Part shown: one piece after another, positions 25,893 through 64,000 of the stretch
How the letters are laid out: each line of letters opens with the position of its first letter
Numbering within the stretch: position 1 is the stretch's first letter
Source: Branchiostoma floridae
Taxonomy: Eukaryota > Chordata > Leptocardii > Amphioxiformes > Branchiostomatidae
Length of the DNA: 64,000 bases
Reading direction: 5' to 3'
NCBI RefSeq assembly: GCF_000003815.2
Contig: NC_049989.1
Span: forward strand, 19,539,165 to 19,603,164
Position numbers and translations under genes: made by a program
The notes under the pieces: generated by a model
Databases searched by the model: none
The model's input: only the letters and a program-made list of their open reading frames with translations
What the model was told of the DNA's origin: nothing

Positions 25893-25976
25893 CCATGGCA
25901 AAACGCGCGCTTGTGATGAAATTTTCTATCGGCTGCCTGAAACAAAACAATTTACCCAACTTTTTAAGCATAAGGG
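25883..25976 (+). CDS. ERAL1: ERAL1 exon 1 (targeting peptide)
   Basis: Starts MAAPMAKRALVMKFSIGCL at an ATG in AAGATGG context and ends before GTGAGT in phase 1. An upstream in-frame ATG exists at 25754, but the context and the basic start favour 25883. Confidence 0.75.
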
Positions 25977-36280: not shown

Positions 36281-36289
36281 GGATTTGCT

Positions 36290-39695: not shown

Positions 39696-39896
39696 TAATG
39701 CTTGTTTACCTTTATCTGCGGGGTAACCTATATCTGTTGCTTTTAAAAACGGGGTATCTAGGCACATCAAGCCGATGGGTGGTAGTTTTAAACTGCAATG
39801 TACTGAAACTATTGCAATTTGAAACCAACGTCTGTCGACGTGATATCCCCAAATAGCGTTTTTGGTTACCCAATGGATAAAGGTGAACTAGCATTA
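39696..39896. mobile_element. MITE (TAACGCTAGTTCACC family), copy 2
   Basis: TAATGCTTGTTTACCTTTAT at the left and ATAAAGGTGAACTAGCATTA at the right are inverted, with inner GGGGTAACC and GGTTACCC arms. Confidence 0.7.
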
Positions 39897-40188
39897 CATC
39901 TCTTTAAATCACTTTAAATTCAAACTTGTGTTTTTTCTCATGTGACAATCAACAAATGAGACAAGTATAAACAAGAACAAACTCCAATGTACTGCTCCCC
40001 AGGTTGCAAACTGTACTCCTCGACCAACCAACTCCTCTGGTGTGTTTTCTGTCTATTTGGCCAATTTCTACTATTTTTCCAGCAACCTGGGGAGCCTGAT
40101 AGAGGCTATGTCTATTGTTTTGTCCTGTAAAGAACTGATGGAGATAAAGCGTACTAAGTATCACGCGAAAATAGAATTGAAGATTGCT

Positions 40189-40384
40189 NNNNNNNNNNNN
40201 NNNNNNNNNNNNNNNNNNNNNNNNNNNNNNNNNNNNNNNNNNNNNNNNNNNNNNNNNNNNNNNNNNNNNNNNNNNNNNNNNNNNNNNNNNNNNNNNNNNN
40301 NNNNNNNNNNNNNNNNNNNNNNNNNNNNNNNNNNNNNNNNNNNNNNNNNNNNNNNNNNNNNNNNNNNNNNNNNNNNNNNNNNNN
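40189..40384. other. assembly gap (N)
   Basis: A run of 196 undetermined bases. It truncates the last visible exon of the modular minus-strand gene. Confidence 0.99.
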
Positions 40385-40474
40385 CAGGGGCAGGCTGGAT
40401 CTGCTCCCTCTTGGCTTTAAGTTGATCCATCAGGCTCCTTAGCTTCTGCATGCCCAGCTCACGTTTCTTGGCGG
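40385..40474 (-). CDS. modular gene: last visible linker exon, cut by the gap
   Basis: Acceptor CTGCAG, then AAKKRELGMQKLRSLMDQLK and AKREQIQPAP, running into the N gap. Resembles the AAK-type helical linkers. Degenerate copies of its acceptor lie just upstream at 40567-40830. Confidence 0.6.
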
Positions 40475-43400
40475 CTGCAGTGATTGGAGAGAGACTTGGA
40501 AATTAGAGTTGTTGTACAAAAACTCATCAGACTGGCCACACATGAAATAGTGCAAACATGAAGAAAAAATGTTTCTTGGCAGCTGCAGTGATTGGAATGA
40601 CTTTGCATTTAGAATTGAATGTAATATACAAAATCACACTTTTGTACAGATGAAATAGTGCGAACATGAAGAAAAAAAAGTTTCTTGGTCGCTGCAGTGA
40701 TTGGAGAGACTCAGCATTTAGAGTTGATATGATGTGCAAAAACGCATCAGAGCGGCCACAAGGAAAATACATGAAGAAAATACTCCAATCCATACCATAT
40801 ATGTTATATACAAACATTGGCTGTGGTGATTGGAGAGACTTGGCAATTAGAGTTGTTGTATTGTATTTTCTTGAATAAAGTACACACCCAAATTGAAATG
40901 TGCAGCCCTGCTTTGGTGCAATTGCGTGAGGGTATTTCGTTTGGTAAGAAAGCACCAAGACAACACCAATGTGTATGTTTTGCATCTTCTCTAGAAGCGT
41001 AGTTTCACCTTGCTTTATTTAGTAGATATAAGATGAATTAAAGAACAGAAACGGTTGAGATATATTAACAGTCAATCAGAAGACAATGACTGAGCAATAT
41101 ATGAAACTTAAAATGCTTGTAGTAAGCCAGGGCTTTAGCCAGCGTCCATTTTTCCGTCAATTGACGGAAATTTGCTGCGTGTGACGGAAAAATTTTAAAA
41201 CCAATCCGTCAACTTTGACGGACAAAAATCTGATAAAACCTCCTTGGTGGAAGCTAGAGGCTGCTTGGGGACGCCGTCCACGGCCGTAAAAGCCACACAC
41301 TGTTTGTTTTGCTATTGTTATGATTGTAGACAATGTGTGTCGGTGCCCTTTCGCATACGATAATCTCATTAAAACCCGTTTTTCAAGGTCTCAGTTCAGT
41401 TTCTCTATCTCCTGAAATAGTGTTTTTGCGACAATGGGAATTGGCTGACGGAAAAAAATGTCGAGCTGGCTAGAGCCCTGTAATAAGCTAACTATAGTGT
41501 AAGTCAGAATAAGACAACAGTAATTTGTCTGGACTTACCACAGACGGTTCCAGCGAGCTCAGCATTGGCCTCTTGGAAGGCAGCATCCGTACACCATACA
41601 GCTGAAGAAAACATGTTACGTTCAGTAAGATAATCTATGCCTCTATCATATTTATATCATTTAAGTACCCACCACACTCATATACTTAAGATCAGAACCA
41701 TGTTCAGACCAAACCTTTTGGTTTGGTTGGGTTTGGCTATACAGATCTTCATTAGTGACTGTTATGTCACTATTCTTTTATTCTGGAGTCCGGGCCTGTG
41801 ATTTGTNNNNNNNNNNNNNNNNNNNNNNNNNNNNNNNNNNNNNNNNNNNNNNNNNNNNNNNNNNNNNNNNNNNNNNNNNNNNNNNNNNNNNNNNNNNNNN
41901 NNNNNNCCAGTTCTAGACGGAAGGGTTTTGCACCATCACACACTGCACGTGTGGGGGTTCTTTAACATGCCTCAGGACCTCCATTTTACGTCCTATCCGA
42001 GGGACGGCCCTAGCCGAAGCTAAGTACTCATTTTCACCTGAGTAAAGTCAGGAAAGTCGTGTAAAGTGCCTTTCCCAAGGGCACAAGATCGGCAGCCGGA
42101 TTCGAACCCGAGACCTCTCGGTCCCGAGCCGAACACACTGCGACTGCGGTACCTGTTTGTTTCTGGCTAAGGCTGAATGCCACATGTCCACAAAGGGGCC
42201 CAGTCGGGCAGTTTTGGGGAACGAAACGTACAGTATTGTATACGAAAGACAACAAGAATACAAAACGGATTCAACAGCATGCTGTGTGTACAATAATTAT
42301 ACTCATCGGCATAAACTTTCAAACTGATTTTTGTAATCTGAGTACTCACGTTTGCAAGCCTGTGCAACGGTATCAACCTGGCCTGGGTTACTGGCCTGTA
42401 TCGCTGGTAACCACTCTGACCACTTAGCACAGTCAAGTTCTGAGGGCAAGAACAATAATCATTAGTTATGGAATTTAGCATGAAAGTTCATCTGTGTTGG
42501 TAGAATACATTATAGAGAATTGCTAAACTTTCATTCCAACACAAAGATGATGTAGGGACTTACCCCTAAATTTTCGGTCGATCTCCGTCGACCTTGTTCA
42601 CAGAATGACCATTTCTCACTCTAGCAGTGACGTCAGGAAGACACCACTTTTGCAGAAAATTTAGGGGTAAGTCCCTACATTATCTTTGTGTTGGAAGTGA
42701 AAGTTTAGCAATTCTCTATAAGTTATGGAATTATTTAATTGTTGAATTGCTGAATGGTCTGAATTGTGAGGATATTCCAAAGAGTAACTGGATAATTATG
42801 ATTTGGAAAACAGTCAGACATTTCAACTGGCATCCACTAGTTTTCATCAGTGACACTGAAGTGATCTGAAAGAAACTGGTCTTTTATACCCTAACTATGA
42901 ATGCAAAAGGGATGAAGACAATTTTAGTTGTCCAATAGAAGGCAAGACGAGGTCAAGCTGAAGACAATTTGGATCCAAAATCATATCCAGTTGCTCTTTG
43001 GCAATTGTCTTATTATCTGGATGTCTAAAAAAAAAAACCTTCATCGACGTGTGCATTGTGAGGAGCTTCAAAACTGGTATTATGGCTTAATGGCAAGGGT
43101 CTGTAACAGCAGCCTGTATGCTACTTTTAGTGACCTTCATATGACAGTAGTTTACCCAGTGATTTTATAGTACATTAATTGTACAACCTTGACGCAGGGA
43201 GTTACTGTGGGTGTATATTATTTTTAACTCCATCGACCTGGATCCAATTCATGGGGCATGTCGCTAGGGGTCAGCTAAAAGCATGGTAGCTCTGCACAAT
43301 ACTCTGGCTTTCCAGAGTAGCAAAGTTGATGTCTGAACCTTCTGCCAAAAGCTGTTGTTCTTGTTAGAAAAACAAATTAGGACAAAATACTTACGCTGAC

Positions 43401-46400
43401 TGGCAGAGGCAGTGTGAGACATGGTCATGGAACCACCAGCAGCACCTGCATCAAAACCTGTTACAGGAGAGAAACAAAATGAGTTTGTTTAATATTTGAA
43501 TGCATGTATCTGAATGGGGGGTGGGGGCTAAATAAAAATGACACTAATTATATACATTATACAGCATGACATGTTCAGTTACTGTTAGTATTAGAATACT
43601 AGTGGCATTTCAAGAAGTATTTACAGCTTCTTACACCAGTTTTACTGTGGAAATATACAAGTGTACAATATACAGTTGCTGTTCAAGGAAATTAATTGCA
43701 TTGTAGAAAACTTTTGAAGGATGTTAAATTACAGGAGGCACATTACCACAACAAGATGGCTGAATGCAAAGTGAGTCTAAACTGTAGTTTAAAGCTAGCC
43801 CATCTGACAGATGAGGCTTAATGATTACATGTTAGAAATGAGCAGTTCATGGAATTTAAAAAAAACTTCTGTCACAGTTGTACTTTGTATGTACTATATG
43901 CTGATTTTGTTAACTAACTAATAAGCTGCTCACACTATTTTGAGCGTGCTGAGTGCATATATTACGTAACTGAAGTTAAGTGTAATAAGTATTACCTGCA
44001 CAGGCTTGCCCATGTAGTTCTGCTTGTGCCTCAGCAAATGCTGGATCTGTGCACCAAACCGCTGTTGGGTAGAGGAAACACAAAAAAAAGAAATTCAAAA
44101 TGTAATCCATAGATATGTCGGTCAACACTACAAAATTATGCAAGTTTGTTTTCTGTTTTTTTTCCCTAAGTATGTAGTGTTATTGTAAAAGAAAACGAAA
44201 CCATGGTGGTCCAAGAAGTATGCATATTATCTGTGTATGGAATATTACCAATTCATGCCGATGGATAAATCATCTGAACTAGCATTCTAAACTTGAAAGT
44301 GTAATGGAAATGTCATGGTAAGATTCATCCTCCTATGTCCGGTCCCCAACGGCACTAGCCTATTGGGGCCCTGCTGTCTGGATGCCCACCAGCGGTTACT
44401 GTGATTGTCGCCACAAACCAGCTGTCAACCAATCAGAGAATAGGCCCTTCTTGGGCTTTCTGTTTATGAAAGCCATCTCTCAAAGGCCGCTGGGAAGCTA
44501 TCAGCCAATCATGTTACGTCTTACATAGCTCCATCCTCCTACGCCCGATCCCCAACGTCTGACTGCCCATATAAGGGTAAGCTCATTAATGTTCATAAGC
44601 AGGGCGGTCATTAACTAATCTGAGTGCACCAGACAGCAGAGGTTCAACAAGGAGTTTCGACACGACTGTGGTCCCTCTGCGTAGGAGAATGGGTAAGATA
44701 TTAATGGTTCTGGTCAGGGCTCTAGCCAGCTCGAAATTTTTTTTCCGTCAGCCAATTCCAATTGTCACGAAAACCGCGAAAACACTATTCCAGGAGATAG
44801 AAAGAGTGCACGGAGATCTTGAAAAACGGGTTTTAATGAGATAATCGTATGCAAAAGGCCGCCGACAAACTTCGTCAACAATAATAACAATAGCAAAATA
44901 AACAGTGTGTTGCTTTTACGGCCATGGATGGCGTCCCCAAGCCGCCTGTAGCTTCCACCAAAGATTTTTGTCCGTCAAGGTTGACGGATTGGTTTTAAAA
45001 TTTTTCCGTCAGACGCAGCAAATTTCCGTCAATTGACAGAAAAACGGATGCTGGCTAGAGCCCTGGTTCTGGTACTCACGTCTGCAGGCCTTTGCCAGCT
45101 TGGGAACCATGGAAGCCTGTGGTCCTGCCATCAACCCGCCAAGCCACTCACTCCACTTGGCACAGTCCAACTCTGTTGTTGGGGAAATAAAATGGAAGAT
45201 TCAAACAAGGTGACAATTCCTGAAATAACATGACAATTTCAAAAATGCTGAAGTCTTTTTCGAAAACCCGATGTGCCTAAACGTTACCAATTTTAAACTA
45301 AATTGTAAGACAATGATGGAATTTGAAATTGTAAAGCAGTGCAGTTAACATGTTTTACAGGAGTTACTCGATTGTATTAGGTTCATTGTTTATTGTTTTA
45401 TTATCTCCTTAATCTGTTGACATCTTATAATTGTGACAGCTGCTTTTCCAGGAGTAACAAAATTACACATAAAACTCGAGTCGGTGAATTACAGTGGTAG
45501 ATCATTAAAGGAAGGTGTTTAATTTTGGATGATCTACAAAGGTGTTTACGTTGGGAGGATGATGATGATGATGACTGCATGTGAGCTTGCATCTTTGCCA
45601 TGTACGCTGCTGCCTTAGCTGGAAAAAACAAACATGAGCTATTATGTTCTCTTTTTTAATATTAGCTCATTGTTGAAGAGTTTCATCAGTCGCTAATATG
45701 ATTAGAGTTGATAGTAGTCGTCAAACACTGATATGCCTTTCATGCCTTTCAAAGTGTCACTGTTTTTTTAAGAATATTCTATCAAATGATATGATGTTCT
45801 ATAGAAAATTGTAGGAAAGAGCAATGTTCACGCAACTGGACATGACATAACAAAATTGAAGGGATATTTTTAGCGTTGTGGGGTCAGTCTATTCAATTTG
45901 CCTCTAGCATAGCTTAATGCTAGAGGCAGCACCGTCATATATCCTAATATAAGTCTTAAGCTATAGAACTGTGGTTATGAAGATGCCATACTTTCAACCT
46001 TGTATAATTGCTGTGCAATAAAGTTATATAACGCTAGTTCACCTTTATCCGCAGTGGTTTCAAGCTGTAATATGTTTACCCACACGGTATTAAGGGATAC
46101 CGTCCGTCGATTTCATATCCCTAAATACCAATTTCTGAAAGCAACGTATATAGGTTATATCCCCGCGGATAAAGGTGAACTAGGGTTATATAACTTTATT
46201 GCTCAGCAATTGTACAAGGTTCAAAGTATGGCATCTTCATAGCCACAGTTCTATAGCTTAAGACGTATATTAGGATATATGACGGTGCTGCATTACTGAG
46301 CTGACTTGTAAAAATCAGACTTTTCCATTCCTACCATTGCTAATGAGAGGGCTAGCTCGCAGGCCGATTCCACCGGCACTCCATCCACCAGCTATTGTCA

Positions 46401-49400
46401 CAATTCTCAAATAGCGGGCCTTGAAGCCTTCGCCGAGGGCCTGGAAGTTCTGGTTCTCTCCGTCCGTATTGCCCTGTATTTCCTGTAATGATATGTACAG
46501 AGAAAGTTTTATTGACGTAATGAAACTAAAAGGTACAGTGAATCTACTCCTCAAGCATAGACTAGGCTATGGCTGTATTTGACATTGTTTTAGGCGTTTT
46601 TAAAAATGAATATCGAAACCTTTAGCTTTGCAACTCATGCATATCTATCAAATAAGTTACTGGAAATTATTGACTTTAAATGCACAATACTCTGAAAAGT
46701 GTAATGATAATCATATATTACCCCTGGTAGGTCAGTCCAGGTTTCGCCATCCTCGCTGTACTTGACTGTGAACTTGGTGAGCCAGCGCGCACCGCCTCCC
46801 ATGGTGGCGATACCCTTCACGGTGATGGCGTGAGTCATGTCGATTTGTAGGTACTCGCCGGCCTGGTCGGTGCTGGGAGCCCAGAAGTGGTCTGCCCCGG
46901 AAGCGTACTTGCCGAGGTTTCCATGGGCGGCGCCGTGGTCCGCGTCCAGTGTCGAAGAAGCCGTCCAAGACGAGTCGGGTAGGAGATTTGCGATCGCCGT
47001 GAATTCTGGGGACAGAACGCAAGTTTATTGATCCAAAGGTTTAATAAATACAGCGACATTAAAAATAGCATCACTTCTATTATCTTAAGACAAGAAGGGA
47101 CTAGAACTGTTGTGCAAGCTGCCATACATTTGTAGCATATACAATTTGTATCAATAGGGTTATGTACATGTACGATCAGCACTTTCACTTGCACTAGACA
47201 ATAGGGCTAAGTGGATGGACTTGTCCAACGGGCCTGAATGAGGGAACTTAAAGTTGTGAGGCAACACGCTTAATTGCTTTACACGAGTTGCTCAGTGATT
47301 TATAGTGGTAAATCATTTAAGGAAGGTGTTTCATTTTGTATGATCTACAAACTTGAAGGTGCTTACCTCGGGTGATTGTTGATGACATATGAGCTTGCAT
47401 CTGCGCCATGTACTGTGCAGCTTTAGCTGGAACCAAAAAAAGGGCTAATTTTAGAAAAGTTGGCATTTTGCCATCAGCTATTATGTTTAACTTATCTTTT
47501 TTCAATATTTTCTGAAGCAAAGTCCGATCCTGACTGTCCATCTTAATTAGCAGTTCTGTATCTGTATCTATATAGCCGGTATAACCGCCCTTCGGCGTAA
47601 CACACCAGCTTCGCAGGCACGCGGCGCGGCAGCAGCTGGTTATATTACACCGAAGGACCCGTCACACCTAACTCTGTTAAACCAATAAGAGAATTATAAT
47701 TAGCAGTTCCGAAAATTAGAAAGTGTCTGCATGTCCGTCAATATTTGCATCTTTATGTATTCACTTGACAAGTGGATCTATTTCATGCCTCTTATCTGAA
47801 CCATATGCCAATTTTGCAATTCTTAATTTGGAGGGATACTGTAAATGCAGAAACTTTCGCGGTGCATTAATGTTCGCGATTTTCGACGTGGCCGCTTCAC
47901 CGCGAACTTAAAAACACAGCACACATTTTTCCACGGCAGTAAGAGACTACAGTGCAATTAGGTGCTACCGCTAACTTAAAACCACCACGAAAAGTCCCTT
48001 TTCCCACTACCGTTAAATTAAAACCCCGCGAAGTTAAATGCATGTACAGTATCATTAGTGTCATGAGATCAGCCTATTGGCCTCTAAAGCTAAGGACACA
48101 ACCCGCCGTACGTGCAATTTGTCCGCACGTTTTTTTGGGTGGCCACGTATTATTGAAAACGTTCAGGCTGTACAGGGCAGGTGCGTCGCCTGTACTGACA
48201 CGTACGGGGGGTGAATCCGCAGTCCGATGGCACACAAAGTTCTACGGCATGTCTGCGTGCTCCAAAATCCGTCGGATTCCCTACAGGTTTGTACGGAGAC
48301 GGTACTTACCACGTACGGATCCCAAAAGATTGCCCACGTTTTGCCACGTAGACAGCGAATTTGCACGTACGGCGGGTTGTGCCCTTAGTTTAACACAGTT
48401 CAATGCCACATGCTACACTGCAGTGCTGCATTAATATTACTGCGCTGACTTGTAAAAAGCAGATTTTTAATATCCTACCATTGCTGATGAGGGGACTGCA
48501 TCGCAGGCCCGCACCGCCGGCACTCCAACCACCAGCTACAGTCACAATTCTCAAATAGCGGGCCATAAAGCCTTCACCGAGGGCCTGGAAGTTCTGGTTC
48601 TCTCCGTCAGTATTGCCTTGTATTTCCTGCAATGATATATACACAGGAGTTTTTATTGACGTAACTTAAAAAAGTTGAAGCAGCGAATCAACTTTGGAAG
48701 CAGAGGCTAGGCTCCAGATGTTTTTGGACACGATTTTATGCGTTTGAATTGGGCTCTCTATTTTGTGCTGTTTTCTTGATGTCTCACCGAGCCATCTAAT
48801 CTAATCTAACTAATTTCCAAATCCAGATGTATCTACCAGTGGCAGGCGGGTACTATCTAATGGCTGAAAGAATATCCATTGGCTACGGTCTTTCAGCTTT
48901 GTCTAGCTAGTTGGAACAACAAGCCTGAAGTAAAGTAAGGATTTTTGATCAATGAACCCTTAATACTAGATTAAAAGGTATTGTTAAAGTAACTGTCATA
49001 GTTCGCTAAAACAATTCTAGCTTGTTCTTCAAGTGGCACGCAAAATGAATATTGAAACCCTTAGCTTTGAAACCATTCATATTCAATATTCAGATACATT
49101 ATTGGAAGGTGTTGGCTTTAGAGGCATTATGTTAAACCCAAAGTACTATAGAAAGGTCAATGTTTATCCTAAATTACCCCTGGTAAGTCGGTCCAGGTTT
49201 CGCCATCCTCGCTGTACTTGACTGTGAACTTGGTCAGCCAGCGGGCACCGCCTCCCATTGTGGCGATACCCTTCACGGTGATGGGGTGGGTCATGTCGAT
49301 TTGGAGGTACTCTCCGGCCTGGTCGGTGCTGGGAGCCCAGAAGTGGTCTGCCCCGGAAGCGTACTTGCCGAGGTTTCCGTGAGCGGCGCCGTGGTCAGCG

Positions 49401-55400: not shown

Positions 55401-58400
55401 GATTGTGTTTAAAAGAACTTTAATATATGACGATACTTGTGGGTTTTTTTTTTCATGATCGTGCACCAGAAGGATTGATGATTTTCTAATCAAATGCAAG
55501 TGTGCTGCACAAAGGCTGCAAGTCCGGAAGTTAATTTTGCCAATACAAAGCTTCTGAGAGTCACTAACATCACATACGTGCTCTTTTAGTGGTCTAGAAG
55601 ACCTGTACTGGCACAAAGCTGTAATATATGTCTCCATTCATTCATTCATTACAATAAAAGGAAATACAAGTAACACACGGGCAAACACAACGAGGCTCCA
55701 TACTTAAATGATATGGCAAAGGAAACTTACCTCTATGCTGAGTTGTCTTGTACTTGTTCAGAATGTAATATGTGAAAAATTTCGATGACGCTGACGAGTA
55801 AGATAAAAAAATGACGTGTTAGAGATGTTGATATTTGTAGTGTTGAATGTCTACCGCATATACTCAATTATCACATCACAACAATGCCTGTTTCGCATAT
55901 AATAATCAAAGCTACAAAGCTAAAGCTACAAAGTTAAAATTGAAAGGAAGGAAATCCGTATTAGCTTGATGATTTTACGTGATCACCAAAAGATACAATG
56001 CAGACGTTTACATAAAAGATAATCAGATAAAGATTATCAAGTTAAGATGTAATTAAGGACGTTGATTGTCACTGTATGTTTTGTATCAGGTCGACTTACA
56101 GGTAGTGATCTTGGTGTTCACTCGTAGGCCAATTCCACCGGCAGGCCAGCTCTGTGGTGCAAATCGCAGGTACCGACATAGAATGGTGCGGCTTAGATTT
56201 ATTGTCTGTGTTCCACTGTCATCACTGTTGCCTGTGAAAACCTATGAGGACACACATAGAAACACTTTCATTCTTCATGGCAAATTCCATATATTCAAAG
56301 ACAGAAGATATGAGTATGAAAGGAATATGTAAGGTTGAACGAATTCAACAATTAGAACTGGGCATTTTGGAGAATAAATATGGTTAGAAAGTTTTGGTAT
56401 AATACTATACCATATCCTCCCCGTCGTCCCCTTTGTAAGTTATCCATGTGACACCATCCACGCTGTAACGCAGGAGGAATGTTGTGACGAAACGCCCGGC
56501 GGCGCCTTGGGTCTCCACGGTGGACAGCTGTGTCGGCTGGCCCATGTCGATCTGCAGGTACTGGTCGGTATCGTCGGTGCCCGGAGCCCAGAAGGCAGGG
56601 CTGCCGTCTTCGTAAGTCTTGCCGATGACGGCATAGTATGACGAGTGCTGCTCGTCAAGTGTGGAAGACGCAGTGAAGGCTTCCCGGGGAATGGACTCGA
56701 TCACGGACACTGTTTCTGTGAAGAGAACAAAAATCTTTCAGCACACTGTCGTTGTCCATATATCTGCCTGTTCAGAAAGTCACTTGGGCTATGGGTCTTA
56801 GCTTAGACTAAGAAGGAACATGCTTCAGTCTATTCCACAGATGCAACAGGAAAGATCGTCAATGCAGTAACGGTACAAACCTGATGTGTTTCGCCCCGAG
56901 ACGGTTTACCAGGTGTGCAATACAAATAGACAAACAAATAACAGCCATGTACCTCCTTCTTCTTCGGGTTCCTCTTCGGGTTCCTCTTCGGGTTCTTCTT
57001 CTTCTTCGGGTTCTTCTTCTTCTTCGGGTTCTTCTTCCACATAGACAAGATATCGAGATGTTAAATGACTGTAAAACTACCTCACTCAAGACCCAAATCT
57101 ATCAAACAATAATATCAATGTGGTCATTGGTGCATTGCCGTAGAGTTGCCAAGAAACCGAGACACACCTACAATGAGTCTCGGAATCTAAATTTGTGAGA
57201 CCCAGCCAATGCGCTCAACTAGAGAATATGTGGGTTGACGAATATGACATGACTTCAAATGACCTGAGCACACAATGGCATTGGGAGGTAGTGTTATAAT
57301 AGTTATGGCCACCGGAGGTATACTAATCTGTGCAAACATAATGTCCAAGAGGTGTCAATAGTCCAACAGGATACTGACATTACCACTTGTTATGAATTGC
57401 TTCAAATGTTTGCGTCGACGTAATAACTACTGGTTAATCACTCTCTACTATCTTTGCAACAACAGATACACATAAGACCACATGCTAGTGCTGATCACAA
57501 TAGAAGAAGACGCGGAGTAAATTGAATTGTTTTTTCTTTTTAAATGTTGAATGCAAACTGTAGAATGCGTTTAAATAGAAATTGCTAGCACATAACGAAG
57601 AGACATACCAGACTAGTGCAACATTATACACATTTCAAAGCTGTGCTGCTGCATAACACAGAAACGCAATAAGTATTTAATTCACCGTACAGACCTTCAA
57701 TATAGAAGCACCTTTGCATATGCCTGTCAATATTGTGATGTGGCTGATATAGTATATATCATAATTAAGATATTTTACACTCACCAACACCTGCTGCCTC
57801 GTTGACAGCTTCTTCCACCTCCTGTACGGTTTCCTCGATCGTCCCTTGTATTGCCACTTGTGCCGCAGTGTCTCCAGACTCAACGGCTTCCTGCAAAGCT
57901 TCTACCTGCTCCTCCAGCTGATCCCGTGCTTCGTCTTAACGACAAATGAGATGTTGATAAGTAAGTGTTTTACCGCTAGAGATCAAAGTTATTATATCCA
58001 ATCGATTGTCAAACAATTGTGAGTTAAATGTTGATTTCAAGGTATGCATTAATACAACAAAAGACTATACCACTCAGTGATTAAACAATGTACCCAGGAC
58101 TGGTGACAACATGCTCAGTTAAGGCAAAGCTTTTAATGTGCAGCCTGCAGGTCTGTGTGGGGAAGTCCCCCAAACCTTAAGGTGGTATCTCATGTACTTG
58201 GGGCATCGGTGCGGCACTGCGGGGTTCGTTCACTTTTGTGTTATTTTCGCCGATTTTTTATAATCAAGATACTGCGTAATACGTCAAAGTATGGCTTTAA
58301 AGACAACAAAATAGTATTACACAAAACCTACGAAAATTAGTTCTTTATCTCTGAAATTCGTTGAGTAATCTTTCCGCACCGGTGCCCCAAGTTCAGTGAG

Positions 58401-61400
58401 ATACCGCCTTTACATCACCTTCTGCAGAGCTGCTTACTAGGCCCAACCTGTACAAACGTACAGACCTACGACAAGCCAAAATCGCTGCCCGGCAGCAAGT
58501 TGTGATGGCCAAGGAAAGGTTAGATAGAAGCAAAAGATGAAGAAAAAGGAAACATTGCACCTTCCCCGACACTAAGTAGCCATGCAAGAAATCAGTCGTT
58601 ACGGAATGGCCCACTTTCACTGGGAAATGATGTATAATAGTTCATGCCCCGTATGTGGGTTCTTGCTCACCTACGGTCTCTGATTCAACGTTGGCTTCTT
58701 CGATGTCTTCAATCAGTGTCTCTACATTGGATTCCAGTTCATCGACTACTTCCTGCTTTTCCTCTTGGGTACCCTCTTGGAGGACTTCCTCAACTTCGTC
58801 CAGGGTTTCGGTTATCTCTTCCTCGGTTCGCACTGTATGGGGTAAGGAACATAAGGTTAGAACACCAAGGATGGTGGTTCGGTATGATTTTGTGTTTATT
58901 AGCTTACCGTTTACCGGTCTCTTCACATGGAGTTCTCATGGGGGGTGTCTGAGCTGAGCATACCGCCTGTCTCAGTTTCCCCCTATCATGTGCCAGCGCT
59001 CGGGTGCTGGTGAGGGGCATTCCGTCCCTTCCCTAAGGCCATGTTGATTTGATTATATGAATGTCATCCACGCGCGATCAATGTTTATGTGTTTCCAAAA
59101 AAAATTGTGAACCGTGTTTTGAATCGTAGAAAGCAGCTGCAGTAATAACATACCGCTGTCTATATTCGTTGATGTCACTACTACTATTTAGCGAAGCCGT
59201 ATTCTCCACTCACCAACGGTCTCAACTGCCTCCTGTGTTTCCTGTACCTCTTCGATGGCTTGTTCCACCTCTTGAACCGTCTCCGATATCGTCTCTTGTA
59301 TCTCCACTTGTGCCGCAGTGTCTCCAGACTCAACGGCTTCTTCCAAAGCTGCTACCTGCTCCTGCAGTTCCTCCTGTGCTTCCACTTTACGATGAAATAT
59401 CAAATACGTAATTGGTTAACCACGAGAGATTAAGTTCATCATGTTCAGTCATTTGTCAAACTGAGTTCAGGTTCCGAAAATACTTTCATCAGGTTGGAAG
59501 AGTTTTCTTTTACACAACCAGTTAATCTCACCTTAGCGATTGTTTTCTCAATCAAGCAAAACTCCAGTTAGAAGCCCTGAGAAAGATGTCTGGCAGGCAT
59601 TGACACGTCAGCTAACATAGGATTAACTGATTGTGTACGCTCGTAAAAGAGAACTCCTATATCCTAAGTTCAAGGTTGATTTTAAAGAATACATTGAAAC
59701 AACGTATGACTACCAAGAAGGGATGAGAAGCGCTGAAGATGACGAAAGAAACTCCACACCTTCTTCAAACATTGTCAGACAGAAGAGACCATTTTTGTTG
59801 ATAAATATGAATAGTCTCCGATTCATGCTCACCAACAGTCTCTGATTGAACTTCGGCTTCAGCGATGTCTTCAATCAACGTATCCACAGTCTCTTCTAGT
59901 TCTTCGACTACTTCCTCCTTTTCCTCTTGAGTACCGTCTTCAAGAACGTCTTCGACTTCGCTAAGGGTTTCAGTCATCTCCTGCTGGGTCTCCTCTGTAT
60001 AAGGTATAGATTGAAGTTGGGACACATAAGAATGCGGTTCGTTAAGCCAAACTCTACCACTTACGCCACACACGACGACATTTACTTTTTAAGAGCTCCG
60101 AGTGTATTAAAAAAACTCTACATTCAGATATTAAATACACATATTCTTTAAGTGTGGCTTATTATGGACCCACGTATTTGAGTAACAACTATATGAAAAA
60201 GTAACTTTCCCACAATAAAACGTTAGAACATTGTATCAATGATTAATGGTGTTCCTCGGGACAATGAGGTTTATGTAACAGACTTCTCACCGACAACTGC
60301 TGCTGCTTCCTCTCCTTCTTGTGTTTCCTGTACCTCTTCGACGACTTCTGCAACCTCCTGTATAGTTTCCTCTATCTCCTCTTGAATCGTCTCTTGCGCC
60401 GCAGTGTCTCCAGACTCCACGGCTTCTTCCAAAGCTGCTACCTGCTCCTCCAGCTCATCCTTTACTTCGTCTTTACGATGAAATATCAATACGTAATTTG
60501 TTAACACGAGAGGTTAAGGTGATCATGTTCAGTCATTGGTCAATCTGAGTTCAGGGTTGATTTTAACAGATACATTTAAACAACGTAGGACTAAAATGGT
60601 GGGATAAGAAAGAAGCACTGTACTGAAGATGACAAAAGAACACCACCCCTTCTGCAAACATTGTGAGACAAAATAGATCAATTTTGCTTGTTGAAAAATG
60701 AAATGGTGTCCGTATGTGGATTCATGCTCACCTATAGTTTCTGATTCAACACTGGCTTCAGCGATGTCTTCAAACAACGTATCAACAGTCTCCTCCAGTT
60801 CTTCGACTACTTCCACCTTTTCCTCTTGAGTGCCTTCTTGAAGAATGTCTCCGACTTCACTAAGGGTTTCAGTCATCTCCTGCTGGGTCTCCTCTGTGTA
60901 GGGTATAGATTGAAGTTCGGACACATTAGATTGCGGTTCGTTAGGCCAAACTCTACCACTTACGCCACACACAACGACACATTCAGAGTATATTTAATAA
61001 CTACATATTCTTTAAGTGTGGCTAATTGTGGATCCATGTATGTAGGTTACAAATATAAGAAAACCTTCTCACATCAATCAAATGTGTTAAAAGTGTATTT
61101 AATCATATTCTTCGGGACAATGATATTAATATAACGGACTTCTCACCAACATCTTCTGCTGCTTCCTCCCCTTCTTGCTCCTCTTGAGCCTCCTCCGCAG
61201 TATCCTTCAGTTCGTCTACAACCTCTATCAGTTCTGCTGCGGCTTGCTCCTGTTCTTCTTGGGTTCCAGACTCTATGACAGACTGCATCTCCTCTACTTG
61301 CTCCATAACCTCTTCCAGTTCACCTACGAAGATCGAAGTGCGATACCATACGTTAGGAACACTTTATGTAGAATTGACAAAATGTATTCAGTGTATCCAA

Positions 61401-64000
61401 ATCAATTACAGTAAACTTTGTACTACGGTGGACATGGATATCAGTATTGGTAGTCTACGTATGATCGACAAGGAATTTTGATCATCCTCGTTCATTTTTG
61501 CTGTTTACTGCATGTATTTTGTTTTGTTTCTTTAATGGTCAAAATTGGTGGAAAACTGGAATTCCAGAGCCCACTCTATTCCCACTCTATTCTTGTGATA
61601 CTTCCAACCTATAGAAGCTTGATCCATATAACAAGCTTAAGAAAAATTGATAAATGATCCACCTTCATTATAATTGTAATCACCATGATATCAGTGTAGG
61701 TACTAACCGACGTCTTCAGTGTCGACCCCGGCGCCCTCCAAGGCCGTTTCCAATTCCTGCACCTCTTCCGCAATGCTTTCCGTCAGCTCCTCTAATTCTT
61801 CGGTGTCGCCGGTTTGTGCAGCTTGCATTATATCATCAGCAGTCTCTACAACATCATCCTGAGTTTCATCTGTGACAAGAGGAACAGAACATTCCAAATT
61901 TATCCGTGAGTAAAATGATGTACTATGTCGTTATATGATGGAATAGGAAGTCATGCTCTGTACACCTGAAGTACGAAACAAAATTACGACTGTGTTTGCT
62001 GGTATTCCTCATACCCCTGTCACATTTGGCGAAAATCGATCGGACGACGATTCTGCGGCAATTGCCCGAGCCTCGCTTATAGTAATAACTTTATTGCACA
62101 ACAATTGTGCAAGGTACAAAGTATGGCTTATATATGACAGTGACAGTTTTCAGGTGAAAATACGTGCAACCCTCTGTCGATCTTAAATATGGCCGATCGT
62201 GGATAATGTGACAGGGGTATTAGGACAATAGAAGACATTAAAAAAATACTTACCAACTTCTTCTGCTGCTTCCTCCCCCTCTTGCTCCTCTTGAGCCTCC
62301 TCCGCAGTCTCCTTCAGTTCGTCTACAGCCTCTATCAGTTCTGCTGCGGCTTGCTCCTGTTCTTCTTGGGTTCCAGACTGCATAACGGATTCCACCTCTT
62401 CTGCTTTCTCTATAATCTCTTCCTTCAGTTCAACTACAAACGTGAAGTACGTTATTGTTGCGTTAGGAATTCATGATAAAGGATTGAAAAAAAATTATTC
62501 CTTGCTTGATATATGTATTGTGACTTTACATTACGCATTTGAAAAAAAAATAGGTATGAGAACTACTAACAACAAAAAATCAGTACATCACGGCATAGAT
62601 CGTGAAATTTGTAGCGAATTATACATTTCATGACCAATGGTGTTGTGTTGCATATAAAACTTGTGTTTATCCGTATCTAATGTTTAAAGTTAGCTTTGCA
62701 TTACACTACACATCGATATCAAGATTCATGAATTATTTGATATTGAAATTAAGTTCTTACGCTTCATGATCATTAGCCATCATTTTATATAGTTTTCATG
62801 TATCATAAATTTCTTGCATAACGATTCAGAGCTCATTTTTCATGTGAGGCCTCTATACGTTGTACATATAGAATTCCGAAAAGTCAAAACATATGCATTA
62901 TTTTTTTTCATTATGAACCTCGTGGAATCGGTTTTTATGGCGTGTACTGTCATGATTTTTTGCTTTAAAGTCCTTGCTGGTAGAGCTATTCAGTACCAAC
63001 TATACGTGTGAGGGTTTGATAAATGCCTGAACCTTAATGATACGTCTATCGATGAATACTGATTTCCATGTTGCCGTAACAGTACTGAAGGTACTAACCG
63101 ACTTCTTGAGTGTCGACCCCGGCCTCCTCCAAGACCGTGTCCAATTCCTCCACCTGCTCCTCAATGTTTTCCGTCAGTTCCTCCACTTCATCAGTATCGC
63201 CGGTTTGGACAGCTTCCAATATATCATCAGCAGTCTCTTTGACTTCTCCCTGGGTTTCCTCTGTGAAAAGCGGACAATTTCGTTTGAAACTTCATCTTAG
63301 AGTAAAAAGACATTTGCTGACGAGAAGGACATGGTGTGTCCACCGTTCTGGAATACACAAAGAAGCCGTCTTAAAAACTGGAGTCATCTGAAAAAAGGTA
63401 ACAAAAATTTCCGACCGGGTTATTTCCTTGAGGACTAAGTTGCTCAGACAGCCCAGGACCTGATATAACTGTTTCCTTTTTTTGTCTCGGTGTTCTATGG
63501 CTTTAGGTAAAATGCTGAATGGTAATGCTACAAGGAGGTAACATATATTTCTAACGGCATTCCTTAAACCTAATCTATCATGACAAAGCTGTGTGTCTAA
63601 TTGAGATAAGGACAGCTAATGTAAGTGTCATCTAGCCCTTTGTAATAGCCACAGATTGCGTGCTCAACAGCCAAACCAATGAATGAATAACAGTGAATCA
63701 TGTGATAAACTAAAAGTTACAACATATTTCCAAAAAGAACAATCATCAGCTATTAGTCAAGCCTTTATTTTGGGACTGTGAACTGCGGATGTAGGCTAGT
63801 AATATACATCAAACAAACAACTCACCAACATCTTCAGCAGCTGCCTCCACTTCTTGCTCCTCTTGAGCCTCCTCCGCAGTCTCCTTCAGTTCGTCTACAG
63901 CCTCTATCAGTTCTGCTGCGGCTTGCTCTTGCTCTTCTGAGGTTCCAGACTGCATAACGGATTCCACCTCTTCTGCTTTCTCTATAATCTCTTCCTTCAG
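40385..64000 (-). CDS. giant modular gene: acidic helical repeats, six discoidin domains, four-Cys domains (partial, 37 exons)
   Basis: I do not recognise this as a named gene. Reading leftward from the right edge: 11 acidic helical-repeat exons (63826 to 57785), a Glu/Pro exon (57033-56953), six F5/8-type-C (discoidin) domains each on two exons (phase 1-0 and 0-1) and each followed by a short linker exon (one Glu/Pro exon also precedes domain 3), then two four-cysteine domains on two exons each with a Gly/Ser/Met linker between, and a last linker cut by the gap. All 36 internal junctions keep frame with GT-AG introns. Discoidin domains are beta-barrels that usually bind lipid, collagen or sugars on secreted or cell-surface proteins, so an extracellular scaffold or adhesion role is plausible but inferred. 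No membrane segment is visible. The N-terminus (signal peptide) is outside the window and the C-terminus beyond the gap. Confidence 0.85.
40467..40835. repeat. tandem copies of an exon 5' boundary, ~107-bp period
   Basis: The block TTTCTTGGCGGCTGCAGTGA plus TTGGAGAGA, then a TTTAGAGTTG-like stretch and GAAATAGTGCAAACATGAAG, occurs at about 40467, 40570 and 40680, with a weaker copy at 40817. Each retains the CTGCAG acceptor in minus-strand sense. Confidence 0.7.
41128..41480. mobile_element. hAT-type MITE, copy 1
   Basis: The ends CAGGGCTTTAGCCAGC and GCTGGCTAGAGCCCTG are inverted. The flanks TAGTAAGC and TAATAAGC form a 7-of-8 target-site duplication. It is 353 bp and is inverted relative to 44715-45065. 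Confidence 0.85.
41539..41601 (-). CDS. modular gene: four-Cys domain 2, second half
   Basis: 63 bases, phase 1-1: PVWCTDAAFQEANAELAGTV then CG. Shares VWCTD and AEL with copy 1. Confidence 0.72.
41807..41906. other. assembly gap (N)
   Basis: A run of 100 undetermined bases, a conventional unknown-length gap size. It cuts the 3' part of the SINE copy. Confidence 0.99.
41907..42155 (-). mobile_element. tRNA-derived SINE copy (truncated by the gap)
   Basis: In minus-strand sense: GGTCTCGGGTTCGAATCCGG (tRNA B-box) near 42100, then CCCTTGGGAAAGGCACTT, ACTCAGGTGAAAATGAGTAC and a GGCATGTTAAAGAACC tail. Same family as 17395-17555. Confidence 0.78.
42350..42439 (-). CDS. modular gene: four-Cys domain 2, first half
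   Basis: 90 bases, phase 1-1: LDCAKWSEWLPAIQASNPGQ then VDTVAQACK. Shares DCAKWSEWL with copy 1. Confidence 0.72.
42510..42721. mobile_element. MITE with ~67-bp terminal inverted repeats
   Basis: TTATAGAGAATTGCTAAACT at the left is inverted at the right, and the inversion continues to TAGGGACTTACCCCTAAATT. The loop has a second small palindrome, GGTCGA with TCGACC. It is 212 bp. Confidence 0.85.
43395..43457 (-). CDS. modular gene: Gly/Ser/Met linker exon
   Basis: 63 bases, phase 1-1, FDAGAAGGSMTMSHTASASQ, between the two four-Cys domains. Supported by phase and splice sites only. Confidence 0.6.
43996..44061 (-). CDS. modular gene: four-Cys domain 1, second half
   Basis: 66 bases, phase 1-1: PVWCTDPAFAEAQAELHGQA then CAG. 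Two cysteines. Confidence 0.72.
44325..44695. repeat. element with repeated CCTCCTA..CCCCAAC blocks
   Basis: CATCCTCCTATGTCCGGTCC at 44326 and CATCCTCCTACGCCCGATCC at 44522 are direct copies, both followed by CCAACG. GCGTAGGAGAATGG at 44681 is the inverted end. Two CCAAT motifs and CATATAAGG lie between. Probably a compound MITE. Confidence 0.5.
44715..45065. mobile_element. hAT-type MITE, copy 2, beside a splice donor
   Basis: The ends CAGGGCTCTAGCCAGC and GCTGGCTAGAGCCCTG are inverted. A perfect 8-bp duplication GTTCTGGT lies at 44707-44714 and 45066-45073. The next six bases (45074-45079) are the donor of the exon at 45080-45172. Confidence 0.92.
45080..45172 (-). CDS. modular gene: four-Cys domain 1, first half
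   Basis: 93 bases, phase 1-1: LDCAKWSEWLGGLMAGPQAS then VPKLAKACR. Unknown domain. Its donor lies immediately beside the MITE at 44715-45065. Confidence 0.72.
45550..45618 (-). CDS. modular gene: linker exon with Ser run
   Basis: 69 bases, phase 1-1, AKAAAYMAKMQAHMQ followed by seven Ser and Gln. The TCA/TCC run is a coding microsatellite. Confidence 0.7.
45926..46291. mobile_element. long foldback element (~104-bp arms) with a MITE at its centre
   Basis: The arms start GCAGCACCGTCATATATCCT and run through CTATAGAACTGTGG and GATGCCATACTTT to AATAAAGTTATATA. The right arm is the inverse. The centre is the element at 46029-46188. Confidence 0.82.
46029..46188. mobile_element. MITE (TAACGCTAGTTCACC family), copy 3, nested
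   Basis: TAACGCTAGTTCACCTTTAT at the left and ATAAAGGTGAACTAGGGTTA at the right are inverted. It sits at the exact centre of the larger foldback. Confidence 0.78.
46335..46482 (-). CDS. modular gene: discoidin domain 6, second half
   Basis: 148 bases, phase 0-1: EIQGNTDGENQNFQALGEGF then ARYLRIVTIAGGWSAGGIGL. Confidence 0.88.
46722..47005 (-). CDS. modular gene: discoidin domain 6, first half
   Basis: 284 bases, phase 1-0, almost identical to domain 5: LPDSSWTASSTLDADHGAAH, YLQIDMTHAITVKGIATMGG. Confidence 0.88.
47367..47426 (-). CDS. modular gene: linker exon
   Basis: 60 bases, phase 1-1, AKAAQYMAQMQAHMSSTITR. Probably an amphipathic helix. Confidence 0.7.
47588..47660. repeat. short strong hairpin element
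   Basis: CCTTCGGCGTAA pairs with TTACACCGAAGG, and ACCAGCT with AGCTGGT, around a GC-rich loop. This looks like a small foldback transposon remnant. Confidence 0.5.
47836..48052. mobile_element. MITE (TACTGTAAATGCAGAAACTT family), second copy
   Basis: ATACTGTAAATGCAGAAACT at the left and AAATGCATGTACAGTAT at the right are inverted. The interior matches 28308-28521 in reverse orientation, for example ACCACCACGAAAA. Confidence 0.78.
48091..48387. mobile_element. MITE with ACACAACCCGCCGTACGTGC ends
   Basis: TAAGGACACAACCCGCCGTA at the left and TACGGCGGGTTGTGCCCTTA at the right are inverted for about 30 bp. It is about 297 bp and GC-rich against its intron. Confidence 0.85.
48479..48626 (-). 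CDS. modular gene: discoidin domain 5, second half
   Basis: 148 bases, phase 0-1: EIQGNTDGENQNFQALGEGF then ARYLRIVTVAGGWSAGGAGL and ending SPLISNG. Confidence 0.86.
48689..48780. mobile_element. half of a GCAGAGGTTAGGC-family MITE
   Basis: GGAAGCAGAGGCTAGGCTCC followed by TTGGGCTCTCTATTTTGT matches the left arm of 2891-3085. No right arm was found. Confidence 0.5.
49178..49461 (-). CDS. modular gene: discoidin domain 5, first half
   Basis: 284 bases, phase 1-0: IPDSSWTASSTLDADHGAAH, FWAPSTDQAGEYLQIDMTHP, WLTKFTVKYSEDGETWTDLP. A different subtype from domains 1-4, shared with domain 6. Confidence 0.88.
49789..49839 (-). CDS. modular gene: linker exon
   Basis: 51 bases, phase 1-1, AARAFTLLHRTKVTKL. 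Confidence 0.68.
49940..50234 (+). mobile_element. degraded LINE reverse-transcriptase C-terminal fragment
   Basis: The open frame ends with HCEDETQFMSFHSTVTRKEL then HPNFFAFNNNKKAILLLTSQ and NPHIIENTRSFV. This resembles the region after the RT domain of CR1/Jockey-like LINEs (usually ...H.CP.Y...R...F). It lies in an intron on the opposite strand to the gene. Assignment is by resemblance. Confidence 0.5.
50444..50585 (-). CDS. modular gene: discoidin domain 4, second half
   Basis: 142 bases, phase 0-1: VFTGNTDGNAPSIQPAPAEF then CRYLRFFPAEWSAGGIAFRI. Confidence 0.88.
51076..51380 (-). CDS. modular gene: discoidin domain 4, first half
   Basis: 305 bases, phase 1-0: LPDSSYTASSNLDDTHTPQY, YWAPATDGTDQYLQVDMTEP, then the same end as domain 2. 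Confidence 0.88.
51835..51894 (-). CDS. modular gene: linker exon
   Basis: 60 bases, phase 1-1, SSKTFTYYMLYKIRKTQNR. Close copy of the linker at 55731-55790. Confidence 0.7.
52051..52192 (-). CDS. modular gene: discoidin domain 3, second half
   Basis: 142 bases, phase 0-1: VFTGNSDDSGTQTIRLSRTI then CRYLRFAPLSWPAGGIGLRV. Confidence 0.88.
52390..52694 (-). CDS. modular gene: discoidin domain 3, first half
   Basis: 305 bases, phase 1-0, almost identical to domain 1: IPQESFTASSTLDEQHSSYY, FWAPASDDTDQYLQIDMGQP. Confidence 0.88.
52955..52987 (-). CDS. modular gene: short Glu/Pro exon
   Basis: 33 bases, phase 1-1, SSEEEPEEEG. A short relative of the exon at 56953-57033, with matching flanking intron sequence. 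Support is phase and homology. Confidence 0.55.
53051..53082. repeat. AAAC microsatellite
   Basis: About eight AAAC units in an intron. A shorter relative lies at 52907-52925. Confidence 0.85.
53263..53322 (-). CDS. modular gene: linker exon
   Basis: 60 bases, phase 1-1, AARSFTLLTQAGGATMEQP. Related to the linker at 49789-49839 (AARAFTLLHR). Confidence 0.7.
53750..54343. repeat. intronic tandem repeat of ~190 bp carrying copies of the adjacent exon boundary
   Basis: The block GAGAATTTTGGCTTACTCTG recurs at about 53752 (diverged), 53949, 54138 and at the true exon end (54330). Each is followed by CTCTGACAGAGAATAACGTT and GTTGCCTTGATGA. Units near 53950 and 54140 are closest. One minus-strand frame stays open across about three units. 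Confidence 0.8.
54344..54485 (-). CDS. modular gene: discoidin domain 2, second half
   Basis: 142 bases, phase 0-1: VFTGNTDGNAPSIQPAPAEF then CRYLRFFPAEWSPGGIAFRI. The donor side is followed by tandem copies of its own boundary. Confidence 0.88.
54864..55168 (-). CDS. modular gene: discoidin domain 2, first half
   Basis: 305 bases, phase 1-0: LPDSSFTASSNLDDTHTPQY, YWAPATDGTDQYLQVDMTEP, YVTKFTLQYSMDGTEFQPVT. Nearly identical to domain 4 at 51076-51380. Confidence 0.88.
55731..55790 (-). CDS. modular gene: linker exon
   Basis: 60 bases, phase 1-1, SSKFFTYYILNKYKTTQHR. A short, probably helical, basic linker between discoidin domains 1 and 2. Confidence 0.7.
56100..56241 (-). CDS. modular gene: discoidin domain 1, second half
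   Basis: A 142-base exon, phase 0-1: VFTGNSDDSGTQTINLSRTI then CRYLRFAPQSWPAGGIGLRV. This is the typical C-terminal half (RYLRF...W.GGI.LR) of the fold. Confidence 0.88.
56411..56715 (-). CDS. modular gene: discoidin domain 1, first half
   Basis: A 305-base exon, phase 1-0. Contains IPREAFTASSTLDEQHSSYY, FWAPGTDDTDQYLQIDMGQP and FVTTFLLRYSVDGVTWITYK, the F5/8-type-C signature. A TGA-free shadow frame exists but is not conserved. Confidence 0.88.
56953..57033 (-). CDS. modular gene: Glu/Pro-rich exon
   Basis: An 81-base exon, phase 1-1. In the only phase that joins both neighbours it encodes repeats of EEEP and EEEEEP ending EEEG. Other frames read as Lys/Asn/Pro or Arg/Thr and do not splice in frame. 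Repeat-length polymorphism is likely. Confidence 0.68.
57785..57934 (-). CDS. modular gene: helical repeat exon B2
   Basis: A 150-base exon, phase 1-1, encoding DEARDQLEEQVEALQEAVES then GDTAAQVAIQGTIEETVQEV and ending AAGVG. This is the last helical repeat before the Glu/Pro exon. Confidence 0.82.
58179..58410. mobile_element. MITE with AAGGTGGTATCTCA ends
   Basis: AAGGTGGTATCTCATGTACT then GGGGCATCGGTGCGG at the left is inverted at the right as CCGCACCGGTGCCCC then TGAGATACCGCCTT. It is 232 bp in an intron. Confidence 0.8.
58671..58832 (-). CDS. modular gene: helical repeat exon A
   Basis: A 162-base exon, phase 1-1, encoding RTEEEITETLDEVEEVLQEG then EEKQEVVDELESNVETLIED and ending VESETVG. 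Confidence 0.82.
59214..59384 (-). CDS. modular gene: helical repeat exon B2
   Basis: A 171-base exon, phase 1-1, encoding EAQEELQEQVAALEEAVESG then DTAAQVEIQETISETVQEVE and ending AVETVG. Confidence 0.82.
59833..59994 (-). CDS. modular gene: helical repeat exon A
   Basis: A 162-base exon, phase 1-1, encoding ETQQEMTETLSEVEDVLEDG then EEKEEVVEELEETVDTLIED and ending VQSETVG. Confidence 0.82.
60291..60470 (-). CDS. modular gene: helical repeat exon B2
   Basis: A 180-base exon, phase 1-1, encoding DEVKDELEEQVAALEEAVES then GDTAAQETIQEEIEETIQEV and ending AAAVVG. Confidence 0.82.
60732..60893 (-). CDS. modular gene: helical repeat exon A
   Basis: A 162-base exon, phase 1-1, encoding ETQQEMTETLSEVGDILQEG then EEKVEVVEELEETVDTLFED and ending VESETIG. 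Confidence 0.82.
61147..61323 (-). CDS. modular gene: helical repeat exon B1
   Basis: A 177-base exon, phase 1-1, encoding ELEEVMEQVEEMQSVIESG then EEQEQAAAELIEVVDELKDT and ending EDVG. Confidence 0.82.
61708..61869 (-). CDS. modular gene: helical repeat exon A'
   Basis: A 162-base exon, phase 1-1, encoding ETQDDVVETADDIMQAAQTG then DTEELEELTESIAEEVQELE and ending VDTEDVG. Confidence 0.82.
62011..62220. mobile_element. MITE with ATACCCCTGTCACATT ends
   Basis: ATACCCCTGTCACATT at the left and AATGTGACAGGGGTAT at the right are inverted, with CGATCGG arms inside. The centre has AATAACTTTATTGCACAACA, also found in the foldback at 45926-46291. Confidence 0.8.
62254..62433 (-). CDS. modular gene: helical repeat exon B1
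   Basis: A 180-base exon, phase 1-1, with VESVMQSGTQEEQEQAAAEL then EAVDELKETAEEAQEEQEGE and ending EEVG. Nearly identical to the edge exon. Confidence 0.82.
62440..63098. other. intron of the modular gene
   Basis: AT-rich, with no repeat of clear structure and no exon recognised between 62434 and 63098. The intron 63261-63825 is likewise featureless. Confidence 0.45.
63099..63260 (-). CDS. modular gene: helical repeat exon A'
   Basis: A 162-base exon, phase 1-1, encoding ETQGEVKETADDILEAVQTG then DTDEVEELTENIEEQVEELD and ending VDTQEVG. Closest to the exon at 61708. Confidence 0.82.
63826..64000 (-). CDS. modular gene: helical repeat exon B1 (partial at edge)
   Basis: Encodes LKEEIIEKAEEVESVMQSG, then EEQEQAAAELIEAVDELKET and ends AAEDVG. 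Donor GTGAGT, phase 1. The 5' end lies beyond the window. Confidence 0.8.

Follow-up and report, generated by a model that had tools for sequence, protein, structure and literature searches.

Discoidin (F5/8C) domains typically have an N- and C-terminal cysteine pair, and in known proteins they bind glycans or lipids. They are joined to EGF domains in the short proteins of the MFGE8/EDIL3 type, while spider-type silk is built of Gly-rich and Gly/Ala/Ser repeats with folded end domains. Among adhesive proteins, the part of PMC10057474 accessible to us describes nectin of the sea urchin as a secreted adhesive of 984 aa with a predicted signal peptide and six tandem discoidin domains, and the temporary-adhesion proteins of echinoderms, flatworms, limpets and cnidarians as mosaics of EGF, VWD, lectin and discoidin domains.

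Here we analyse a stretch of 64,000 nucleotides of Branchiostoma floridae (C11:19539165-19603164, hereafter the window; coordinates above 64000 are the window numbering run on rightward). It holds the back half of a predicted gene that runs 28 kb further right, to extended coordinate 92123. By analogy, nectin as described in the accessible text of PMC10057474 appears to be the nearest functional precedent in print. Both have tandem F5/8C domains; nectin has a predicted signal peptide, the window gene a first exon that looks like one by eye, and the one cysteine of nectin that is proposed for dimerisation may be set beside the single cysteine in seven of our eight F5/8C domains. Yet only F5/8C domains are reported for nectin in that text, whereas our predicted protein is not limited to a signal peptide and six tandem discoidins but has many other modules, of which the helical, Gly-rich and four-Cys parts are its own. 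It resembles the temporary-adhesion proteins, as the same text presents them, in being a predicted large secreted mosaic that reuses discoidin domains, but differs in that the whole predicted protein gave no Pfam match to a VWD or lectin family, nor to EGF. At C11:11.33 Mb a second predicted gene combines EGF with F5/8C as the MFGE8/EDIL3-type proteins do, but its EGF exons number 17 and it also has four-Cys domains and a tail. Spider-type silk and the window gene both have Gly-rich repeats and folded ends, but the latter consists mostly of acidic helices and discoidins. No title or abstract start among the matches listed in our literature search, with subscription journals mostly outside its range, describes this architecture. 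For lancelet species the available part of PMC6071037 traces differences in domain architecture to gene-prediction errors, and therefore both gene models given here are to be read with caution.

Exon chain of the window

The exon model comes from a dynamic program on splice sites and codon use, which was trained on the most obvious exons, and its exons were then joined by hand. In the window the program gave a chain of 33 exons. Hand editing from the paralogous copies (4 exons added, 1 corrected and 1 dropped) turned it into 36 exons from 64000 to 41539, with 5,344 nt and 1,781 aa and no stop. A 37th exon at 40474-40385 follows in phase and is open into the N gap at 40189-40384. It was preferred to a very short last exon with a stop near 41477, which was dropped; the program exon 47635-47606 was dropped for having no repeat partner. 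The earlier note on this DNA had claimed 37 minus-strand exons joined in frame with GT-AG junctions, and the same count was rebuilt from 64000 to 40385, stop-free and with AG/GT borders. The order that it gave is also kept, namely 11 helical exons, a Glu/Pro exon, six F5/8C domains with small linkers (Pfam finds these six in the window, and eight in the whole gene) and two four-Cys domains, with a basic tail beyond them. The exons of the window are as follows.

63826-64000, minus, helical exon, 5′ end cut by the window edge (true start 64005)
63099-63260, minus, helical exon, 53-aa type
62254-62433, minus, helical exon, 59-aa type
61708-61869, minus, helical exon, 53-aa type
61147-61323, minus, helical exon, 58-aa type
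60732-60893, minus, helical exon, 53-aa type
60291-60470, minus, helical exon, 59-aa type
59833-59994, minus, helical exon, 53-aa type
59214-59384, minus, helical exon, 56-aa type
58671-58832, minus, helical exon, 53-aa type
57785-57934, minus, helical exon, last of the array, 49 aa
56953-57033, minus, Glu/Pro exon, EPEEEEEPEEE...
56411-56715, minus, F5/8C D1 exon 1 (Pfam)
56100-56241, minus, F5/8C D1 exon 2 (Pfam), 5′ border set by hand after the D3 copy
55731-55790, minus, linker exon SSKFFTYYILNKYKTTQHR, added by hand, paired with 51835-51894
54864-55168, minus, F5/8C D2 exon 1 (Pfam)
54344-54485, minus, F5/8C D2 exon 2 (Pfam)
53263-53322, minus, linker exon AARSFTLLTQAGGATMEQP, less certain
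52955-52987, minus, second Glu/Pro exon, SSEEEPEEEG, short, less certain
52390-52694, minus, F5/8C D3 exon 1 (Pfam)
52051-52192, minus, F5/8C D3 exon 2 (Pfam)
51835-51894, minus, linker exon SSKTFTYYMLYKIRKTQNR, added by hand
51076-51380, minus, F5/8C D4 exon 1 (Pfam)
50444-50585, minus, F5/8C D4 exon 2 (Pfam)
49789-49839, minus, linker exon AARAFTLLHRTKVTKL, less certain
49178-49461, minus, F5/8C D5 exon 1 (Pfam)
48479-48626, minus, F5/8C D5 exon 2 (Pfam)
47367-47426, minus, linker exon KAAQYMAQMQAHMSSTITR, paired with 45550-45618
46722-47005, minus, F5/8C D6 exon 1 (Pfam)
46335-46482, minus, F5/8C D6 exon 2 (Pfam)
45550-45618, minus, linker exon KAAAYMAKMQAHMQSSSSSSSQ, added by hand
45080-45172, minus, four-Cys domain 1, first half, LDCAKWSEWL...C
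43996-44061, minus, four-Cys domain 1, second half, WCTDPAF...C, added by hand
43395-43457, minus, linker exon FDAGAAGGSMTMSHTASASQ
42350-42439, minus, four-Cys domain 2, first half
41539-41601, minus, four-Cys domain 2, second half
40385-40474, minus, basic tail exon AKKRELGMQKLRSLMDQLKAKREQIQPAP, cut by the gap 40189-40384, weakly like the terminal exon of the second gene

All introns of the window have GT/AG ends and are of phase 1, save for a phase-0 intron within each F5/8C domain. Exons of less than 40 nt are the least certain of the model, and assembly gaps lie in or at it at 40189-40384, 41807-41906 and 91514-91613. The chain score for 41500-64000, a stretch that holds the training exons, is 864 on the minus strand and 97 on the plus strand, and 20 dinucleotide shuffles did not exceed 24. 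The stretch 64010-84900, which belongs to the same gene and has no training exon, scores 778 against 91 on the other strand and at most 26 in shuffles. Of two neighbouring controls, 93500-101500 scored 13 and 13, and 24800-41400 scored 25 (minus strand) and 136 (plus strand). The exon series is thus not a chance product, because its scores far exceed the other-strand and shuffle values. The differences between exon copies in the window are mostly silent (dN/dS 0.06-0.67, computable in 21 of the 22 pairs tried); upstream the values are 0.11-0.44 in 10 of 11 pairs, and 1.00 for exons 14 and 18.

Other features of the stretch may be recorded here. A 189-bp tandem array (53687-54351) lies at and after the end of exon 54344-54485; its units copy the last bases of that exon and the donor region and are a possible source of alternative donors. 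A 26-bp minisatellite of about 36 copies (37892-38805) lies downstream of the gene. Exons of a divergent T-box gene are seen on the minus strand at 20810-21172 and 24235-24759 (Pfam T-box 2.9e-18, and 1.1e-4, the latter below the cut-off), with Brachyury/T as the closest solved relatives. Also on the minus strand, a long open stretch at 7879-8736 looks by eye like the end of a non-LTR retrotransposon, and had no Pfam match at E<=0.01.

Upstream half and full-length model

The series runs on to the right of the window, with the strand unchanged and the phase mostly so, and comprises a signal-like exon, Lys/Ser/His- and Gly-rich exons, two F5/8C domains, 16 helical exons and a Pro/Gln linker. 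Taken up to the gap, the predicted gene has 74 exons on the minus strand and reads for at least 3,761 aa without a stop; with the tail left off, the remaining 73 exons have a computed pI of 4.05 and a mass of 396 kDa. For the upstream phase, a second program run was restricted to phase 1, and the first, unrestricted run had given the same phase for most exons. The modules are bounded by phase-1 introns on both sides (class 1-1), and only the introns internal to F5/8C domains differ.

The earlier note had suggested looking rightward for a signal peptide. On that side a first exon was found at 92123 which is signal-peptide-like by eye (MGFYVRCLILLLGVLAVSSLP, in the context CGCCACCATGG). It lies 4.2 kb from exon 2 and could be another gene's, because this interval holds the gap 91514-91613. 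Exon 2 carries RVRR, which we take to fit the pattern of a furin-type site; a partial copy of this exon (IQNSDRMSRSL...) is seen just upstream of it, at extended 87943-87863. Exon 3 is Lys/Ser-rich and then His/Gly/Ser-rich (158 aa with 36 His), and exon 4 is Gly-rich (54% Gly) with a repeated GGHGWSMSGG. For both of these exons the unrestricted and the phase-restricted programs preferred alternative open frames, and the frames given here were chosen by hand because they have phase 1 at both ends. In its chosen frame exon 4 ends in GSIFEGLAEG, like GLIEGVAEG of the linker exon. Differences among internal repeats in the chosen frames fall as 17, 15 and 36 at positions 1, 2 and 3 for exon 3, and as 35, 75 and 106 for exon 4, both from overlapping comparisons that are not independent; as a yardstick, the first exons of D2 and D4 differ at 3, 1 and 8 sites for the three codon positions. 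No Pfam match was found for the N-terminal 379 aa.

The upstream F5/8C pair is joined by a Gly-rich linker. Exon 10 has a weak donor, and the borders of exons 10 and 11 differ from those of the unrestricted program. The first helical array has 16 exons (860 aa, net charge -266) and the second has 14, of which 11 lie in the window (759 aa, net charge -271). The linkers between them are small exons, partly Pro/Gln-rich, with a collagen-like PGVPGSPGRKG and CGGC, and the linker stretch 70136-66629 is made of small, low-scoring exons. Six upstream program exons (90329-90206, 88281-88247, 86329-86297, 84919-84895, 78214-78044 and 75261-75172) were dropped, as they have no repeat partner or break the phase-1 series. 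Beyond the gene, exon-like stretches on the minus strand at extended 103850-110556 resemble by eye a kringle domain and an NLR-type protein.

Discoidin domains and helical repeats

Pfam matches PF00754 (cut-off 28.2 bits) in six stretches of the window (417 bits together, 1.1e-126) and two upstream (168 bits together, 1.1e-49). Their closest solved relatives, among the best 60 of 66 matches, are coagulation factor VIII, the venom prothrombin activator and neuropilins. None of the eight domains has the terminal cysteine pair; seven have a single cysteine and D6 has none. A single cysteine in seven of eight fits dimerisation, and would also fit a reducing place. The protein sequences of D1/D3, D2/D4 and D5/D6 share 92-97% identity, and their exons have dN/dS of 0.06-0.20. 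F5/8C exons are abundant in the genome, with at least 166 matches in a search of the animal's own sequence. Two F5/8C-rich regions, C10:13.648-13.708 Mb and C7:16.695-16.765 Mb, were set aside, as the best matches at each place there included neither a helical nor a four-Cys exon. The first of these (C10:13648000-13707999) looks by eye like a mucin-like gene, in which long Thr-rich exons alternate with F5/8C and Cys-rich exons.

The 30 helical repeat exons of the two arrays are acidic and amphipathic. Their hydrophobicity has a periodicity peak at 100 degrees per residue of 2.58, against at most 1.29 in 100 shuffles, and by eye each exon looks like two helices about a turn of the GDT/SGT type. 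The closest relatives of exons 12, 13, 14 and 15 are exons 16, 17, 18 and 19, as in growth by blocks, while in the second array the closest relatives are mostly two exons apart. A genome search with two of the window helical exons gave eight matches at E<=0.01, all of them in the second array of the same gene. For the apolipoprotein A1/A4/E repeats (PF01442) the helical array reached 26.5 bits, under the cut-off of 90; this match and those to Psb31, GIT1 and other Pfam families are below cut-off and were taken as effects of composition. Profile matches of the helical exons in PDB (the best being a designed helix bundle, 0.0029) were read as helix-likeness only.

The four-Cys domain and a second gene

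The two four-Cys copies of the window, searched singly, matched no Pfam family at E<=10. At E<=1 four of five copies were without a match and the fifth was VP16-like (0.071, 13.4 bits against a cut-off of 27), and the joined pair gave ADAMTS_CR_2 (0.021) and PSI_integrin (0.19), both below cut-off. PDB held no acceptable match for the domain (best E 0.31 and 0.085), and a profile of six copies found nothing there at E<=10. The six joined copies share D4, C5, W8, W11, C31, P33, C36, D38, F41 and C54 (numbering of the first copy), so that the four cysteines are invariant in 6/6 aligned copies.

A search of the animal's own genome with one window copy returned the window copies and a weak match at C11:11332515 (E 0.48). 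At this match both halves of the domain lie between AG and GT; before them come an F5/8C exon and a linker, and after them a tail exon that bears a stop. A search with a copy from this second gene, taken without the junction residue, gave seven further first-half exons at C11:11384-11389 kb, one of which has a stop inside the match. A 1,051-base piece of this cluster (C11:11384900-11385950) contains one full four-Cys domain, a small linker exon and the next first half. The cluster as a whole (C11:11384022-11389127) repeats the four-Cys domain in tandem, its copies separated by the linker exon (IQSKVQSQTQ), and lies upstream of the second gene. First-half exons so far number 13, all on C11, and 8 of the 13 were read in DNA with their splice sites. 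Judged from sequence, the four-Cys domain is a real module family, because it recurs in the second gene and in the nearby cluster. The earlier note had called the domain unfamiliar, and it stays so: Pfam and PDB give no acceptable match, and the same chromosome carries it at two other sites.

The second predicted gene lies on the minus strand and was read over 50 kb, a stretch in which no signal exon was found. Its first part has acidic exons, linker pieces (GVYIQIGADGG and INVINNQISVYGG, which resemble GVNLVIGPNSG and QIVNNQITV/QIINNQII of the window gene) that sit upstream of the EGF array, then the 17 EGF exons (by eye) and a Gln/Ser/Glu-rich exon. Its end runs four-Cys, four-Cys, F5/8C, F5/8C, four-Cys, F5/8C, four-Cys and a tail with a stop. 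Pfam confirmed one EGF and one spliced F5/8C peptide. The F5/8C domains have three exons each, as against two in the window gene. On comparing four-Cys copies between the genes, none of 2,000 shuffles reached the score in 8 of 8 pairs. For the NNQI linker pieces 1 and 0 of 2,000 shuffles did so, and for the tails 8 of 2,000; the linker exons are not significantly alike between the genes (227, 34 and 1,920 of 2,000). The C-terminal order common to both genes is F5/8C, linker, four-Cys and tail.

Discussion

We consider it somewhat probable that one gene of at least 74 exons encodes a secreted, giant, acidic modular protein, and that this would form a scaffold outside the cell, whether gel, mucus, cuticle-like or adhesive. 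An extracellular place is favoured by the signal-like exon and by the EGF exons of the relative, and the role may be that of a matrix, gel or adhesive. The protein would be stored and secreted as a polyanion whose two acidic arrays serve as extended rods or spacers and bind cations. Chains may associate through the Gly-rich block, the basic block of His/Gly/Ser and the tail. The discoidin domains may bind a glycan or other surface ligand, and at the C-terminus chains might be joined by the four-Cys domains together with the helical tail, giving the scaffold. The earlier note had also proposed an extracellular mosaic assembled by exon shuffling. The mosaic part agrees with the phase-1 framework, the signal-like first exon and the second gene with its F5/8C, four-Cys and EGF exons. 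The shuffling part agrees in part: the helical array of one gene against the EGF array of the other looks like module exchange, but much of the size has come from tandem duplication of exons and multi-exon blocks.

The model would break down if the exons belonged to two or three successive genes, the first ending in or near the Pro/Gln linker, another carrying the helical exons and another the discoidin and four-Cys parts. The small, low-scoring exons at 70136-66629 and the prediction errors behind lancelet architecture differences (PMC6071037, in its available part) speak for such a split, but no stop or phase break is required across the 74 exons, helical arrays flank the linker with F5/8C domains beyond each array, and the second gene has similar linker pieces before its EGF array together with the same C-terminal order; we regard separate genes as unlikely. 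Much the same low probability is given to a secreted immune recognition protein, in which the discoidins would be lectin-like binders of microbes and the arrays spacers. The glycan or lipid binding of F5/8C domains and the wealth of F5/8C exons in the genome agree with it, yet the near identity and low dN/dS of D1/D3, D2/D4 and D5/D6 are the opposite of what diversifying binders would have, and the acidic and Gly-rich blocks suggest a material and not a receptor.

The same evidence on place bears on whether the protein could be an intracellular acidic scaffold, with the signal exon belonging to another gene. In its favour, acidic helical repeats are common in cytosolic proteins and all eight F5/8C domains lack the terminal cysteine pair; but the signal-like exon is in phase with exon 2, EGF exons, typically extracellular, accompany the same modules in the second gene, and the four-Cys cysteines are invariant in all six aligned copies, so we hold this to be very improbable.

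Returning to the secreted scaffold, we put forward more tentatively, as a possibility that may well fail, that the window gene and the C11:11.33 Mb gene found a new family of giant matrix proteins. Its members would share a similar tail, discoidins that lack the terminal disulfide, a four-Cys domain of a new kind (DC-x2-W-x2-W ... C-x-P-x2-C-x-D ... C) and whole phase-1 arrays that are interchangeable (acidic helical or EGF), and the helical array would have grown by tandem exon duplication into a polyanionic silk- or mucus-like material. The four-Cys domain itself adds a family for which Pfam and PDB, at the sensitivity used, have no acceptable relative. The two genes also offer a worked case of how a giant extracellular protein can grow on a phase-1 framework, through duplication of exons and blocks, and swap whole arrays between relatives. 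The window protein is a candidate natural material, whether gel, mucus, cuticle or adhesive, in the lancelet, an invertebrate close to the vertebrates.
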